From positions 1-50,975 of the forward strand of contig PLYL01000022.1 in the NCBI GenBank assembly GCA_003151795.1: a stretch of 50,975 nt of DNA, in the 5' to 3' direction. Positions 171 through 50,922 of the stretch are shown piece after piece. Both the position numbers and the translations under genes were made by a program. Below the pieces are notes generated by a model. That model saw nothing but the letters and a program-made list of their open reading frames with translations. It was not told the DNA's origin and searched no databases. Positions within the stretch are counted from its first letter, which is position 1. Every line of letters starts with the position of its first letter. This stretch comes from Candidatus Yanofskyibacteriota bacterium. Lineage in GTDB: Bacteria; Patescibacteriota; Minisyncoccia; 2-02-FULL-40-12; GWA2-44-9.

Positions 171-302
171 CCACCAAACGAAACATTGTCGGAATTAAGA
201 AAACGGAGCGATTTTGCGGGAGCCAAAATCGCGCTATCATTTTTTTCAAAACCCTTTCCGCCTACGGCGGAAGCCGTGAATTCCCAAAGCTCCCCCCAAT
301 TG
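171..302 (+). repeat. Left 132-bp inverted repeat of recombinase element 1
   Basis: Exact reverse complement of 1717-1848; outer end CCACCA, contains CCGCCTACGGCGG. Confidence 0.93.
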
Positions 303-307
303 AAATC

Positions 308-1864
308 ATGAAAGAACTCAAACCAAAATATTTTCTCTACGCGAGGAAATCAACAGAGGATGATGACCACCAGATAATGTCTATTGAGGCACAGCTTTTT
401 GAATTGCACGAATATGCGCGTAGAGAAAATCTTGAAATTCTTGAGGAATTTCAAGAGTCGAAAAGCGCAAAGAAACCGGGTCGTGAACTATTTAACGAAA
501 TGATGGCCCGCATTGAAAATATGGACGGCGTAGGCATCCTCGCGTGGCATCCAGACCGTCTTGCTCGCAATAGTGTCGACGGCGGGCGCATCATTTACGC
601 AGTAGACACGACCAAAATAGTTTCTTTACGCTTTCCGACATTTTGGTTTGAGCCAACTCCGCAAGGCAAATTTATGTTGCAGGTGGCGTTCGGACAGAGT
701 AAGTATTACAGCGATAATCTAGTTGAAAATATTACGCGTGGTATCCGCCAAAAAGTCCGTCGAGGCGAGTGGTTGGTGCGCGCTCCCTTTGGCTATGTGA
801 ATAATCCAAAAACGAGAAATATTGAACCTCACCCGACTAAATCTCGCATTGTGGTGAAAGCGTTTGAAGAATACGCCAAAGGGACGCACACCCTCGGCAC
901 TATCGCGGACTTTTTGGCGGATCACGGCGTGAGTACGAAAGGAACGCCACCTGCCAAAGCTTCCGTCGCTCGTATGCTCTCAAATCGTGTCTATCTCGGC
1001 TTTACATACCACAAGGGCGAGTATTACGACGGAAGCTTTGCGCCAATTATTTCTCCGACACTGTTTGAAGCAGTCCAAAAAATGCTTGCGAAAAAATCTC
1101 GCCCTCGCGTGCAAAAAGTACCGAACCATTTTCCATTTGCACAATTCGCTCGGTGCGGTGAGTGCGGAAGTATGATTACGGCTCAATATGCGACAAATCG
1201 TTTTGGTACTAAATATACTTACTATCGCTGTACCAAAAAGAAAGGTGTTTGTCATCAGCCGTATCTATCATCTTCCGCACTCATTTCGCAAGCAAAAAAT
1301 CTGCTTCAATCAGTGTCGCTTCCTCTTTCAGAAATTGAGAACATGGAAAAGCAAATTGACTTGTGGGACAAAGAGTCAATTTCCGAAAGAGGAAGTGTTG
1401 CCCAAAATCTTAAAACCAAACTTTCCGAAACGAAGGAGAAGCTGGACAAACTTGTTTCCATTTATCTTGACGGCGATATTGAACGCGAAATATATTTACA
1501 GCGAAAAGACCTTCTCCTTCGTCAGAAAGCAACGTTTGAGGAAAGTTTTAAGGATTTTGGGCAACAGAGAAAAAATTGGGTCGAACCCTTGCGGAGTTTC
1601 GTTTTGTCTTTGAGAGAAGCCGTTATTTTGGAAAAAAGCGAAAACTATTTCGCATGGAAAGAGTTTTTCCAAAAAATCGGCTCTAACCCTATTCTCAAAG
1701 ACAAAACGCTTTCATGCAATTGGGGGGAGCTTTGGGAATTCACGGCTTCCGCCGTAGGCGGAAAGGGTTTTGAAAAAAATGATAGCGCGATTTTGGCTCC
1801 CGCAAAATCGCTCCGTTTTCTTAATTCCGACAATGTTTCGTTTGGTGGACCGTACCGGACTTGA
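308..1864 (+). CDS. Large serine recombinase (resolvase domain, recombinase domain, zinc ribbon)
   Basis: N-term YARKSTEDDDHQIMSIEAQ, TFWFEPTPQGKFMLQVAFGQSKYY, CGECGSMITA...YYRCTKKKGVC. Confidence 0.93.
   Translation: MKELKPKYFLYARKSTEDDDHQIMSIEAQLFELHEYARRENLEILEEFQESKSAKKPGRELFNEMMARIENMDGVGILAWHPDRLARNSVDGGRIIYAVDTTKIVSLRFPTFWFEPTPQGKFMLQVAFGQSKYYSDNLVENITRGIRQKVRRGEWLVRAPFGYVNNPKTRNIEPHPTKSRIVVKAFEEYAKGTHTLGTIADFLADHGVSTKGTPPAKASVARMLSNRVYLGFTYHKGEYYDGSFAPIISPTLFEAVQKMLAKKSRPRVQKVPNHFPFAQFARCGECGSMITAQYATNRFGTKYTYYRCTKKKGVCHQPYLSSSALISQAKNLLQSVSLPLSEIENMEKQIDLWDKESISERGSVAQNLKTKLSETKEKLDKLVSIYLDGDIEREIYLQRKDLLLRQKATFEESFKDFGQQRKNWVEPLRSFVLSLREAVILEKSENYFAWKEFFQKIGSNPILKDKTLSCNWGELWEFTASAVGGKGFEKNDSAILAPAKSLRFLNSDNVSFGGPYRT
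1717..1848 (-). repeat. Right 132-bp inverted repeat of recombinase element 1
   Basis: Reverse complement of 171-302; lies inside the recombinase 3' coding end. Confidence 0.93.
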
Positions 1865-5462: not shown

Positions 5463-5652
5463 GGGCCTGTCGTAAAGTGGTATTATACGACATTCGTTCA
5501 CCCGCCCAAACTTTCCCCTGGGCCCATAGCTCAGCTGGTAGAGCGCGTCATTCGCATTGACGAGGCCGCCGGTTCGAATCCGGCTGGGTCCACAGGAAAG
5601 TTTAGGCGGGCAAGTTGCCGGGTCGGGAGTCCGATTCTCCCCAGGTCCACCA
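5463..5652 (+). other. Outer tRNA-like halves (about 5463-5499 and 5613-5652) bracketing a complete tRNA-Ala(CGC)
   Basis: GGGCCTG (5463) pairs with CAGGTCC (5642-5648); D-arm-like GTAAAGTGGTATTATAC; T-arm GGGAG TCCGATT CTCCC then ACCA; internal 16-nt arms 5501-5516/5595-5610 pair at 15 of 16 positions. Confidence 0.5.
5520..5592 (+). tRNA. tRNA-Ala(CGC)
   Basis: GGGCCCA TA GCTCAGCTGGTAGAGC G CGTCA TTCGCAT TGACG ... CCGG TTCGAAT CCGG TGGGTCC A; no CCA encoded. Confidence 0.93.
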
Positions 5653-7119
5653 GAGAGGAAATTGCAAGTTTTTGGGCATAGGGCCGCCGCAGGCGGCCAC
5701 CAAATCGTAAGGAATTTTGGGCGAAAAAAGCAGTTGGCGATTCTGCAAAATGCAGTTCGAGCCGATATTTTTAAGAAATGTTGTCATTTCCGATTTGTTT
5801 TCAAATTCAAGCAGTTTAGAGGCTTGATTCAAGGACAAAACAAACTCACGAGCCGGTTCGAGCCAAGATAATCCTATTTGTTCAAAATCCGTAATTTTCT
5901 CGCCAAGCCCTACCTTTTGGATAACAAGGATTTCCTTTCTTACTTTGTAGTCATCGGCAGAAATGACCTCGTTAAGATATACGTCAAGAAGTTTTTGGAG
6001 TTTGGCCTCAATCTTGGTTAATTCTGTTTTGAAATTTTGAACAGTAGTTTTAGCTTCCTCTTTTGCTCGGCTTTCATCTTTTTCTAGCTCGGCTAAAACT
6101 TTCTTGGTGTCTTGGCTTGACAAAGAAACTTTTTGAAGAAACGACTTAACTTGTTTATATAGTTCTTCATCTCGCAAAAAATACTTTTCTTGGCACGGCC
6201 CTTTCTTTTTCGTGCACCGATAGTAAATATATTCTCTACCGCTTGGCTTGATTTTCTTTTCGGCTGTTATAGCTGCAGAACAAGGACATTTCATTAAGCC
6301 AAGAAAAGCAAAATTATGTTTCTTAATTTTTTGCGATTTTCCTTTTTCTCGCATGATCTCTTGTACTCTATCAAAAAGTTTCTTTGAAATAAGCGGCTCG
6401 TGAGTTCCTTGGAAAATTTCTCCTTTGTATTTCATCAGCCCTATATAAAAAACATTTTGGAGTATTTTAGGGACTTGCGAGATATACATACCTTTATCCA
6501 AATTGCTTTTGGTACTTACTCGCATATACCACTCGGCTAATTCTCGGAGGTTGTAATTTCCAGTGGCATAAAGCTCAAAAAGTTTTTTTACTTTGCGGGC
6601 TTTTTCTGTATTAACATCAATCCCGCGTGTCTTTGGATTATTGAGATAGCCGAGCGGTGCTTTGCTAGGCCAAACTCCGTTTCTCACTTTTTGTCTCATC
6701 CCACGAGTTACATTTTCACGTAGGGCGTCCACATAATATTTTGATTGGCCAAAAGCAATTTGGAGCATAAAAAGTCCTTGTGGCGTTGGTTCAAACCAAA
6801 ATGTTGGAAATTTCAACGCTTTAATCAAGCCGCGATCTATCATGTGAATTATTCTTCCGCCATCTACGGAATTACGAGCAAGACGGTCGGGATTCCACGA
6901 AAGTATGCCGTCCGCTTTTCCTCTCTCAATCAATGCCAACATTTCTGCGAATTTAATTCGCCCAGGTTCTTTGGCAGTTTTTGCCTCTTGAAGAGAGGCG
7001 ACGATTTCAAGTTTTTCTTTGGCGGCAAATTCTTTTAACTCAAAGATTTGGGCCTCAATACTCAAAATTTGTCTATCGTCATCTTCGGTGCTCTTGCGAG
7101 CGTAAAGTATATATTTCAT
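5602..7119 (-). CDS. Large serine recombinase (second copy, related to 308-1864)
   Basis: MKYILYARKSTEDDDRQILSIEAQ, TFWFEPTPQGLFMLQIAFGQSKYY, CPCSAAITAEKK...YYRCTKKKGPC. Confidence 0.93.
   Translation of the reverse strand: MKYILYARKSTEDDDRQILSIEAQIFELKEFAAKEKLEIVASLQEAKTAKEPGRIKFAEMLALIERGKADGILSWNPDRLARNSVDGGRIIHMIDRGLIKALKFPTFWFEPTPQGLFMLQIAFGQSKYYVDALRENVTRGMRQKVRNGVWPSKAPLGYLNNPKTRGIDVNTEKARKVKKLFELYATGNYNLRELAEWYMRVSTKSNLDKGMYISQVPKILQNVFYIGLMKYKGEIFQGTHEPLISKKLFDRVQEIMREKGKSQKIKKHNFAFLGLMKCPCSAAITAEKKIKPSGREYIYYRCTKKKGPCQEKYFLRDEELYKQVKSFLQKVSLSSQDTKKVLAELEKDESRAKEEAKTTVQNFKTELTKIEAKLQKLLDVYLNEVISADDYKVRKEILVIQKVGLGEKITDFEQIGLSWLEPAREFVLSLNQASKLLEFENKSEMTTFLKNIGSNCILQNRQLLFSPKIPYDLVAACGGPMPKNLQFPLWWTWGESDSRPGNLPA
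5647..5747 (+). repeat. 101-bp inverted repeat of recombinase element 2 (tRNA side)
   Basis: Exact reverse complement of 7153-7253; outer end CCACCA; contains CCGCCGCAGGCGG. Confidence 0.93.
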
Positions 7120-7152
7120 ATGGTTTTGATTAAAAATTTTCTTTTCCCAAAA

Positions 7153-7253
7153 TGCAGAATCGCCAACTGCTTTTTTCGCCCAAAATTCCTTACGATTTGG
7201 TGGCCGCCTGCGGCGGCCCTATGCCCAAAAACTTGCAATTTCCTCTCTGGTGG
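7153..7253 (-). repeat. 101-bp inverted repeat of recombinase element 2 (distal side)
   Basis: Reverse complement of 5647-5747. Confidence 0.93.
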
Positions 7254-7338
7254 TCTATTCTTAAAGTAGTTCGGACGCATTTCGCCGCCAAGGGCGGCGG
7301 GGATCTGGCCAAAAATTCCGAACCGAAATTCTGAACTT
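7250..7338 (+). repeat. Left 89-bp inverted repeat of unit 3
   Basis: Exact reverse complement of 8294-8382; contains CCGCCAAGGGCGG. Confidence 0.92.
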
Positions 7339-7446
7339 AAAAACTGCCAAAGAACCTGATAAAAATATCGGCTCGGACCGCATTTTAATTTTGGGAAAAG
7401 AAAATTTTTAATCATTTATTATTAAATCATTAAGCATATAATTTTT

Positions 7447-8229
7447 ATGTCTAACGAAGAATACAAACCAATACCCAAGGAGGTTACAGGCGCAGAAACA
7501 TCTATGCCTGCTGAGCATAGTGAGGCAAGAAGCAAAGATTACAAAACATACGACATTCCAAGACTCACACTAGATTTAACCAACGAACTTGAAACCAAGC
7601 TTATTGTCCCACTTGAAGAAGCTCGTCAAGTCAAGGCTGCTTTAGAATCACTCGAAGATCTTGCGAAGCGTGTTCCAATTAGAATCATCAAAAGTTCTTT
7701 TTCTGGCGGTAGTGGTCGTGCAGATCCTCATAACGAAGGTCCCGGCCCGTGGGCTCCTGAAACAGCAATTAGATACTTGGAATTAGAAGGTCCAGAAGTT
7801 GGATCCCTCAACGAACTTGCATCATCTCTTCGCTATCTAATTGTGGATTTTAACACCGCGAGGAAAGCTGCTGTATCAATTAAACAACAAGGTGGATCAG
7901 GGAAGAAGGCTTTTATTATGATACCTAATTCTGAAGAGAATGGCCTCTATGTAAATCTACATAAGGCCATAGATAAGAAGGGTATAATCGACCACTTTGA
8001 ACCAATAGCACAAGCCAAACTGGATAATGTCACTCAGGAGTGGATTCCACGACTTAGGTCTAATATAAAGAGTACTTTCTTAAAGGCAGTGGAGATTCTT
8101 CGAGAATCCGCTGCAAATCCATCAAGTTGGTCGGATTCGAGTGACCCCTCAACATTCCCCAAGGATCGTCCTGAAACTCTCTTGAGTTTAGCAAAGGAAA
8201 TTGAGGAAATGGAAAGACATATAAACTGA
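7447..8229 (+). CDS. Hypothetical protein (260 aa), cargo of inverted-repeat unit 3
   Basis: Long ORF with coding-like composition; no family recognised. Confidence 0.7.
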   Translation: MSNEEYKPIPKEVTGAETSMPAEHSEARSKDYKTYDIPRLTLDLTNELETKLIVPLEEARQVKAALESLEDLAKRVPIRIIKSSFSGGSGRADPHNEGPGPWAPETAIRYLELEGPEVGSLNELASSLRYLIVDFNTARKAAVSIKQQGGSGKKAFIMIPNSEENGLYVNLHKAIDKKGIIDHFEPIAQAKLDNVTQEWIPRLRSNIKSTFLKAVEILRESAANPSSWSDSSDPSTFPKDRPETLLSLAKEIEEMERHIN

Positions 8230-8293
8230 GTCTGGGGCCTTAGAGTTCAAATAAGAAGAGAATTTGCCGCCAAAGAAAAACTTGAAATTGTCA

Positions 8294-8382
8294 AAGTTCA
8301 GAATTTCGGTTCGGAATTTTTGGCCAGATCCCCGCCGCCCTTGGCGGCGAAATGCGTCCGAACTACTTTAAGAATAGACCAC
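8294..8382 (-). repeat. Right 89-bp inverted repeat of unit 3
   Basis: Reverse complement of 7250-7338. Confidence 0.92.
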
Positions 8383-49423: not shown

Positions 49424-50746
49424 ATGAACAATACAACCCAAGTGCCAATCGGGGCTATGGCCAAGGGAATACCAGCCCCCATAAAGGTCAGATATTGCCT
49501 GTATGCAAGAAAAAGCACCGAGTCAGAAGAACAGCAGATCCTCAGTATAGATAGCCAAATCAAGGAGATGCTGGCTATAGCCGAGCGTGACCATCTGGAA
49601 GTAGTAGAGATCAAGAAGGAATCCCACTCTGCCAAGGAAGCCGGACAACGACCAGTCTTCAATGAAATCGTGGATGAAATCAAGATCGGCAAATTCAATG
49701 GCATCCTGACCTGGGCGGCCGATCGTATCTCCCGAAACGCCGGAGACTTAGGCCGAATCGTCGATCTCATGGATAGCCAACAACTCATTGAAATCCGAAC
49801 CTATGGGCAGAAATTCACCAATAGCCCGAATGAGAAGTTTCTTCTTATGATTCTCGGGAGCCAAGCCAAGCTCGAGAACGACAACAAGGTCGTAAATGTA
49901 AAGCGAGGGCTAAGAGCCAGATGCGAGATGGGCTTGTGGCCATGTACTGCCCCGACCGGATATCTAAACAGCACCAGCAAGGAGAAGAGTTGTCATGTTG
50001 AGTTAGATCCCCACCGAGCACCCGTCATCAAGAAGATGTTTGAAAAGATAGCTTATGAAAAATACAGCGGCCGGAGATTACACGCTTGGCTCAAAGATGA
50101 ACTGAAATTCACGACTAAGAATGGCAAGCCACTTACAATCAGTAATATCTATCTGACTCTTCGCAATACCTTCTACTATGGTAGTTTTGAATATCCGAGA
50201 GGCGGAGGTCAGTGGTATACCGGCAAGCATACGCCCATTATTACTAAGGAATTGTTTGATGCCGTTCAAGCCCAGATGTCAGACTATGAACTCAAAGGAA
50301 GCCATAAGGAGTTTGCCTTCACGAAATTAATGACCTGCGGTCTCTGTGGCAGTGGCATTACCGCCGATGAGAAATTCAAGAAACAGCAGAATGGCAATCT
50401 CCATCGCTATGTCTACTATGGTTGCTCAAGATTCCAAAATAAGAATTGCAAATCCGGCTATATGCGAGAGGAAGATTTGATTGAACAACTAGCTGGTCTT
50501 ATGGACAAGATCGACTTGGACGAGATTGGCATAAAAGAACGAATCAAATCTGAAATCGAACGGCACAAGAAATTCCAATCAGGGCTTCTTGGTATCAGAG
50601 AAAAATCAATCAAAGTTGGCGATATTGATATCCGGAACTATGCTAAATATATACTAAGAGACGGGACGATATTGGAGAAGCGGGAGTTACTAACTTGTCT
50701 GAGGAGTAAGATAACGATGGCGAACAAAGAAATTAAAATCATCTAG
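49424..50746 (+). CDS. Large serine recombinase (third copy, divergent, no long inverted repeats seen)
   Basis: RYCLYARKSTESEEQQILSIDSQ, RISRNAGDLGRIVDLMD, CGLCGSGITADEK. Confidence 0.92.
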   Translation: MNNTTQVPIGAMAKGIPAPIKVRYCLYARKSTESEEQQILSIDSQIKEMLAIAERDHLEVVEIKKESHSAKEAGQRPVFNEIVDEIKIGKFNGILTWAADRISRNAGDLGRIVDLMDSQQLIEIRTYGQKFTNSPNEKFLLMILGSQAKLENDNKVVNVKRGLRARCEMGLWPCTAPTGYLNSTSKEKSCHVELDPHRAPVIKKMFEKIAYEKYSGRRLHAWLKDELKFTTKNGKPLTISNIYLTLRNTFYYGSFEYPRGGGQWYTGKHTPIITKELFDAVQAQMSDYELKGSHKEFAFTKLMTCGLCGSGITADEKFKKQQNGNLHRYVYYGCSRFQNKNCKSGYMREEDLIEQLAGLMDKIDLDEIGIKERIKSEIERHKKFQSGLLGIREKSIKVGDIDIRNYAKYILRDGTILEKRELLTCLRSKITMANKEIKII

Positions 50747-50794: not shown

Positions 50795-50850
50795 TTGACT
50801 CAACCGAACCGGTGTCGCCTTGACCCCGTTCGGTCGGTCTCACATGCCTG

Positions 50851-50922
50851 TGCGCCCGGAGGGAATCGAACCCCCACCAACAGCTTCGAAGGCTGCTGCT
50901 CTATCCGTTGAGCTACGGGCGC
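50851..50922 (-). tRNA. tRNA-Arg(TCG)
   Basis: Minus strand GCGCCCG TA GCTC..GAGC..GCAGC CTTCGAA GCTGT..CGGGCGC A. Confidence 0.93.

Follow-up and report, generated by a model that had tools for sequence, protein, structure and literature searches.

A probable compact, LSR-driven integrative element at tRNA gene 3' ends in Patescibacteria, with an intact inverted attP and a single-gene cargo slot

Introduction

Among the described systems, phiC31/Bxb1-type phages and LSR-carrying islands share with the locus analysed here the recombinase domains, the attL/attR bounds and a fixed kind of integration site. In the usual LSR integrative elements attP is split into attL and attR, whereas here, as in relatives of the element, an intact and inverted second attP (7153-7338) is retained within the integrated form. 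This attP lies inside the recombinase gene, and the element further differs in its two inverted arm pairs of approximately 100 bp, in its one cargo slot and in that no RDF gene common to the elements was found. The yeast 2-micron circle has two inverted recombination sites that divide it into two unique regions, a topology comparable to that proposed below; on the other hand, it is an autonomous plasmid with a tyrosine recombinase and does not integrate. Integrons resemble the element in that the recombinase gene is followed by single genes that can be exchanged and share one polarity, and in that cassettes can line up (locus L031, see below). Here, in contrast, a tyrosine integrase, attI and attC are absent and the whole element moves to tRNA genes; an integron was rejected because the recombinase is a serine recombinase.

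Two further phage systems are relevant. The single-stranded DNA of the CTX phage carries two inverted attP copies that pair with each other (PMC3089051). The likeness lies in the two copies of opposite orientation within one element, but CTX is a filamentous phage that depends on the host tyrosine recombinase XerCD, whereas the present element has its own serine recombinase. In the integration-dependent immunity of mycobacteriophages, attP is located in the repressor gene, integration into a tRNA gene alters the C-terminus of the product, and no RDF is evident (PMC9262239); all of these traits are paralleled here, except that the gene altered is the recombinase gene itself and that the enzyme is a serine rather than a tyrosine recombinase. 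No published description of the element was found in the literature, searched among open-access papers, and it appears to be a new variant of the LSR integrative elements whose arrangement is apparently undescribed among those papers.

Results

Boundaries and parts of the element

The window is the whole stretch of DNA analysed, 50,975 nucleotides of a contig assigned to Candidatus Yanofskyibacteriota. The original prediction described at 5463-7253 a second recombinase unit (U2), flanked by exact reverse complements and similar in layout to a first unit (U1). The repeats are exact over 101 bp and lie 1,405 bp apart, a length that, judged from the sequences, is far beyond chance and recurrent in relatives; chance repeats were considered and dropped. 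The limits of the unit, however, had to be redrawn. Position 5463 is the first base of an interrupted tRNA-Ala gene and not of the element, and the element continues to 8382. A second exact inverted pair of 89 bp overlaps the 101-bp pair by 4 bases, at the att core, and the two pairs form parts of one 2,736-bp element (5647-8382), in which the 101-bp repeats are the P' half of attP and the 89-bp repeats its P half. The repeats do flank the recombinase, as had been stated, but they are not the ends of a recombinase-only unit, since one stands at attR and the other makes up half of the internal attP. From attR at the tRNA-Ala 3' half, the element extends through the LSR gene, the inverted intact attP and one cargo gene to attL (Table 1). 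A terminal-repeat transposon was discarded because the outer ends, P' (5647) and P (8382), are similar in the core only and are not inverted repeats of each other.

Table 1. Positions and strands of the element's features, and of the first unit, in the window
Feature	Position	Strand	Evidence or remark
tRNA-Ala(CGC) 5' part, interrupted gene whose 3' end is the target	5463-5500	+	97% over 34 nt to tRNA-Ala(CGC) of G383 (L136)
tRNA-Ala(CGC) 3' half, B half of attR	5615-5652	+	97% over 36 nt to L136
Core CCACCA	5647-5652	+	End of tRNA-Ala(CGC) 3' half
P' arm at attR, also coding LSR residues ahead of core	5647-5747	+	Exact reverse complement of 7153-7253
LSR gene, frame through P' into tRNA half	5602-7119	-	PF00239, PF07508, PF13408
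Block 'motif' at LSR 3' end, codes KNIGSN	5747-5773	-	Inverted repeat at 7360-7386; pairing conserved in relatives
Block s1 in LSR gene, codes around TAKEPG	6963-6982	-	Inverted repeat at 7339-7358
Hairpin h between s2 and s1, in coding sequence	6983-6999	-	Covarying 7-bp stem in clade
Block s2 in LSR gene	7000-7036	-	Inverted repeat at 8256-8292
Block X2, LSR gene leader	7127-7153	-	Inverted repeat at 7388-7414
P' arm of internal attP	7153-7253	-	Exact reverse complement of 5647-5747
P arm of internal attP	7250-7338	-	P arm conserved in relatives; exact copy at 8294-8382
Cassette head: copies of s1 (7339-7358), motif (7360-7386), X2 (7388-7414)	7339-7414	+	
Cargo gene, 260 aa, without Pfam family	7447-8229	+	Other genes fill the slot in relatives
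Cassette tail, copy of s2	8256-8292	+	Same position in relatives
P arm at attL; chromosome from 8383 on	8294-8382	+	Exact reverse complement of 7250-7338
First unit U1	171-1848	+	P' arms 171-302 and 1717-1848; LSR 308-1864; tRNA-Ala(GGC) 1843-1918

The Resolvase, Recombinase and zinc-ribbon domains of the U2 recombinase all score above the cut-off, and this LSR is 48% identical to that of U1, so the two are related as had been proposed. The cargo side of U1 is lost past the contig end. The CCACCA noted at the outer end closes the 3' half of tRNA-Ala(CGC), and an Rfam search of the element gave only tRNA above the cut-off. The tRNA-Ala(CGC) gene at 5463-5652 is broken in its anticodon loop by approximately 114 bp, in which a second tRNA-Ala(CGC), itself complete (5520-5593), lies between inverted repeats (5501-5526 and 5585-5610); this insert is perhaps a replacement tRNA or a tiny separate element. 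At L011:4473-4610, beside a P' arm, a tRNA-Ala(TGC) with flanking inverted repeats comparably stands against the 3' half of another tRNA-Ala.

Recurrence in relatives and tRNA targets

One scan of GTDB representative genomes yielded 80 relatives, labelled mostly Patescibacteria; the data are sequences alone, mostly short-read MAGs. When the relatives were aligned outward from the core, the tRNA-side arm and the gene-upstream arm proved identical in kind (P'), while the far side of the upstream core was a second conserved arm, P, and not tRNA. Because of this alignment, the tRNA-side junction is taken as attR (tRNA.P') and the upstream site as an intact attP (P.core.P'). P occurs again, inverted, 0.8-2.3 kb farther out, where it is joined to the chromosome as attL, and the hybrid junctions tRNA.P' and P.B' share a common core in relatives. 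The P' repeats were found in 54 of the 64 relatives with enough flank to be tested (median 98.5 bp, mean identity 98%) and the P repeats in 43 of 60 (91.5 bp, 97%). Distant LSRs (42-60% identity) follow the same plan with longer cargo: L140, at tRNA-Gln, has a P of 297 bp, exact, and a cargo unit of 4.1 kb, and L194, in a three-contig genome and at tRNA-Ser, has P' of 120 bp and P of 216 bp, both exact.

A complete tRNA gene adjoins the P' arm on the gene's 3' side in 42 of 59 loci, and 12 isotypes are represented. The recurrence of repeats and tRNA adjacency upholds the proposal of a real element class, and a check for homologues that consistently lack both found no such pattern. The layout common to the two units was also borne out, but the repeats that had been called unrelated are att arms, a part that changes fast, from two subfamilies of a single kind of element. 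Homologues of the U1 recombinase occur in 31 of the 103 genomes of the class, and the window's genome holds five such elements: U1, U2, L093 (on C2), L095 (C15) and L097 (C6, cut by the contig end). An internal control is provided by four more LSR-related genes of that genome (31-38% identity), which lie near tRNA genes and lack such repeats. At the right end of the window, an LSR-related gene (49424-50746) without inverted repeats lies near tRNA-Arg (50850-50922).

In nearly all loci the 3' end of the LSR gene points towards the tRNA (42 versus 1 and 34 versus 1, in partly overlapping sets). At L011, L063 and L147 the tRNA adjoins the P' arm on the gene's 5' side, opposite to all other loci; each of these is rearranged or cut, and they are possibly the other insertion isomer or rearrangements. 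L093 and L095 have homologous DNA (CTTAACCCGAGTGGCCCGC) outside the P' arm, without a recognised tRNA, and because of this flank some targets may be other than intact tRNA genes. In G075 and G381, of the same genus, NAD kinase, tRNA-Ala(CGC) and uvrD are present without the element; both also lack approximately 700 bp past 8383, which hides the precise B' junction of the unoccupied site.

Searches of phage and plasmid records gave no relative above 60% identity, and the IMG/VR search gave just two partial matches, at the edges of phage contigs (L091 and L092). These contigs open with 117 codons from the start of a related LSR gene, hairpin h included, and continue with other DNA. The exact s1-motif junction pattern was tried as a survey tool and given up as too strict, since it matched 4 of 380 genomes of the phylum and missed the window's own copy.

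The attachment site within the recombinase gene

attP is located within the final codons of the LSR gene. When P' was joined to P, the LSR frame remained open beyond the core in 84 of 90 cases, some loci being entered twice under different handles in this count, and a conserved RT tail appeared in 73 of the 90. The tails read ...LWWSILKVVRTHF for U2 of the window, ...VIISFARTFFERE for U1 and ...DEIRTFFERN for others. In the P arms of the U2 clade, the tail frame is free of stops in 33 of 33, while the other two frames contain stops in 33 and 25, and most of the variation falls, codon-like, at third positions. In the integrated copies the RT tail is lost and replaced by antisense-tRNA codons (...WWTWGESDSRPGNLPA in U2). 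With attP inside the gene, the C-terminus of the LSR thus changes on integration, and the resident copy's enzyme, carrying a foreign tail, is probably restrained. The best evidence that the joined (P'.P) form recurs is the conservation of a tail that is absent from every integrated gene.

Cargo slot, shared blocks and hairpin

Between the P arms there is usually one gene, reading outward behind the leader X2. Pfam families found in this place include dihydroorotate dehydrogenase, sodium:solute symporter, sodium/calcium exchanger, methyltransferases, RDD, DUF218 and deoxyribosyltransferase, and several cargo proteins start with MNQKGF followed by a hydrophobic stretch. The Pfam matches are in outward ORFs, with none in 36 inward ORFs. 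When the cargo of 39 elements was compared, only three weak matches were obtained, despite recombinase genes up to 89% identical; by this comparison, the slot turns over far faster than the recombinase. In L031 (199-2496), two tandem cassettes are joined by s2, a P.P palindrome without core, and s1. A second kind of cargo is found in the cassettes of L017, L018, L028, L029, L034, L053 and L056: an entire transcription unit, which starts with a short hairpin resembling a terminator and a TTGAC promoter and has a common 3' block near s2.

Four short blocks of the cassette scaffold have counterparts in the recombinase gene: s1, motif and X2 ahead of the cargo gene and s2 after it. The blocks vary between elements, yet the cassette and gene copies agree within an element, and in L093 all four are exact. 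The within-element mean scores of s1, motif and X2 were above all 5,000 permutations; that of s2 was not. Between s2 and s1 the gene has hairpin h. Covariation preserves the 7-bp stem of this hairpin even across amino-acid changes, and none of 5,000 shuffles keeping the residues and the column codons reached the observed pairing. U1-type genes lack this hairpin. In the cassette, the P arms occupy the position that h has in the gene. The blocks and the hairpin point to a nucleic-acid structure that would be under selection. Two further models were abandoned. One fold pairing all the repeated blocks, tried on paper, has crossing pairs and gives no single nested structure. Derivation of the scaffold from a recombinase gene that was permuted by opening at h and that lacks P' agrees with the block order, but no intermediate was found.

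Discussion

With a probability of roughly 0.77, 5647-8382 is an LSR-driven compact integrative element at a tRNA 3' end, which serves as a one-gene cassette carrier with a tail switch. Its best supported part, judged from the junctions, is LSR integration at tRNA 3' ends by attP x attB. The element's own LSR probably directs it to tRNA gene 3' ends; the LSR frame is thereby cut at the core, leaving attR (tRNA.P') and attL (P.B'). Excision by attL x attR would give a circle of approximately 2.7 kb with two identical inverted attP sites, in which (P'.P) the LSR would be full length with the conserved RT tail. The two sites would part the circle into an LSR half and a cargo half, and once one had been used in integration, the other would stay intact in the element's middle. 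In the cargo half, the scaffold P-s1-motif-X2-[gene]-s2-P would stay constant while the gene in its slot is swapped, probably through homologous recombination in the arms on either side; the element is therefore regarded as a one-gene cassette carrier. Against this explanation it counts that a double-stranded circle with two attP sites predicts two insertion isomers, whereas nearly all loci show one. Either the other isomer would be unstable, with its LSR transcribed from the tRNA promoter, or the process would be strand-directed.

Several simpler accounts of the repeats were weighed. That the recombinase gene with terminal inverted repeats (5647-7253) moves alone, transposon-like, with the cargo unit as a separate neighbour, would agree with the neat bounding of the gene by its repeats and with the similar second unit in the window; it is nevertheless very unlikely, because relatives at many different tRNA genes have the same P arm beyond the right repeat, and in 43 of 60 the recombinase is accompanied by the cargo unit and the second P arm. 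Slightly less probable still is an amplifier like that of the 2-micron plasmid, in which inversion between the two attP sites during replication would raise the copy number: the inferred circle has the same topology, with two inverted sites parting it into two unique regions, but none of the elements read has a replication gene, and the LSR and cargo halves stand in one relative orientation in all aligned loci. The inverted arms can hardly be a product of short-read assembly. The material is MAG data and 26 of the 80 relatives have a contig end no more than 300 bp from the gene, but the same anatomy with different arms recurs in dozens of independent assemblies, including the three-contig genome, and contig ends at the arms are what real repeats would be expected to cause. 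Short-read assembly may account for part of the exact identity of the long arms, as long repeats may be copied from one consensus; the reading-frame result and the short blocks are independent of such copying.

Two other readings bear on the retained attP and on the single isomer. Besides integrating, the element may be a self-inverting switch, which would explain the intact internal attP: the LSR half would flip by way of the two P' arms, one at attR and one in the internal attP, from an off state with the enzyme lacking its tail to an on state with P'.P read-through and the RT tail, in which the LSR is joined to the cargo and the tRNA promoter. Topology and frame permit this, the P arm of the internal attP codes for the same tail, and in L011, L063 and L147 the tRNA is on the gene's 5' side. 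The reading is possible but has the odds clearly against it, since one orientation is almost totally dominant, the three loci just named are rearranged or truncated at contig ends, and attP x attR is not a standard LSR reaction, such that homologous recombination would be needed. More doubtful is a fold-back site, in which the inverted attP copies would pair on single-stranded DNA into one duplex attP and give a strand-directed insertion of one orientation. Serine recombinases cleave and exchange all four strands, which speaks against it. In its favour, a one-strand dumbbell exchange would give exactly the observed attR-LSR-attP-cargo-attL as a single isomer, and the arms are perfectly complementary, the blocks agree and the hairpin covaries; the cassette and recombinase blocks and the coding hairpin would then be parts of the folded structure. 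There is also the CTX precedent (PMC3089051), and the inferred circle likewise has two attP copies in opposite orientation; moreover, DNA uptake through ComEC delivers single strands (PMC8579336). Single-stranded DNA, such as that taken up in natural transformation, could then be integrated and resolved in one fixed orientation, spreading single genes among Patescibacteria, although we consider this improbable. If true, the single-strand exchange would be new for a serine recombinase.

The genomes of Patescibacteria are small, and few mobile elements particular to them have been described. The probable integrative element would be a defined and very small vehicle for single genes, whose exact boundaries make it possible to list the cargo and to measure how the element spreads. 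Because its repeats break assemblies, it may have escaped notice. It would also be a case of an integrase gene altered by its own integration, and it provides a natural serine recombinase set in which attL, attP and attR can be read in one locus, with tRNA targets of 12 isotypes.
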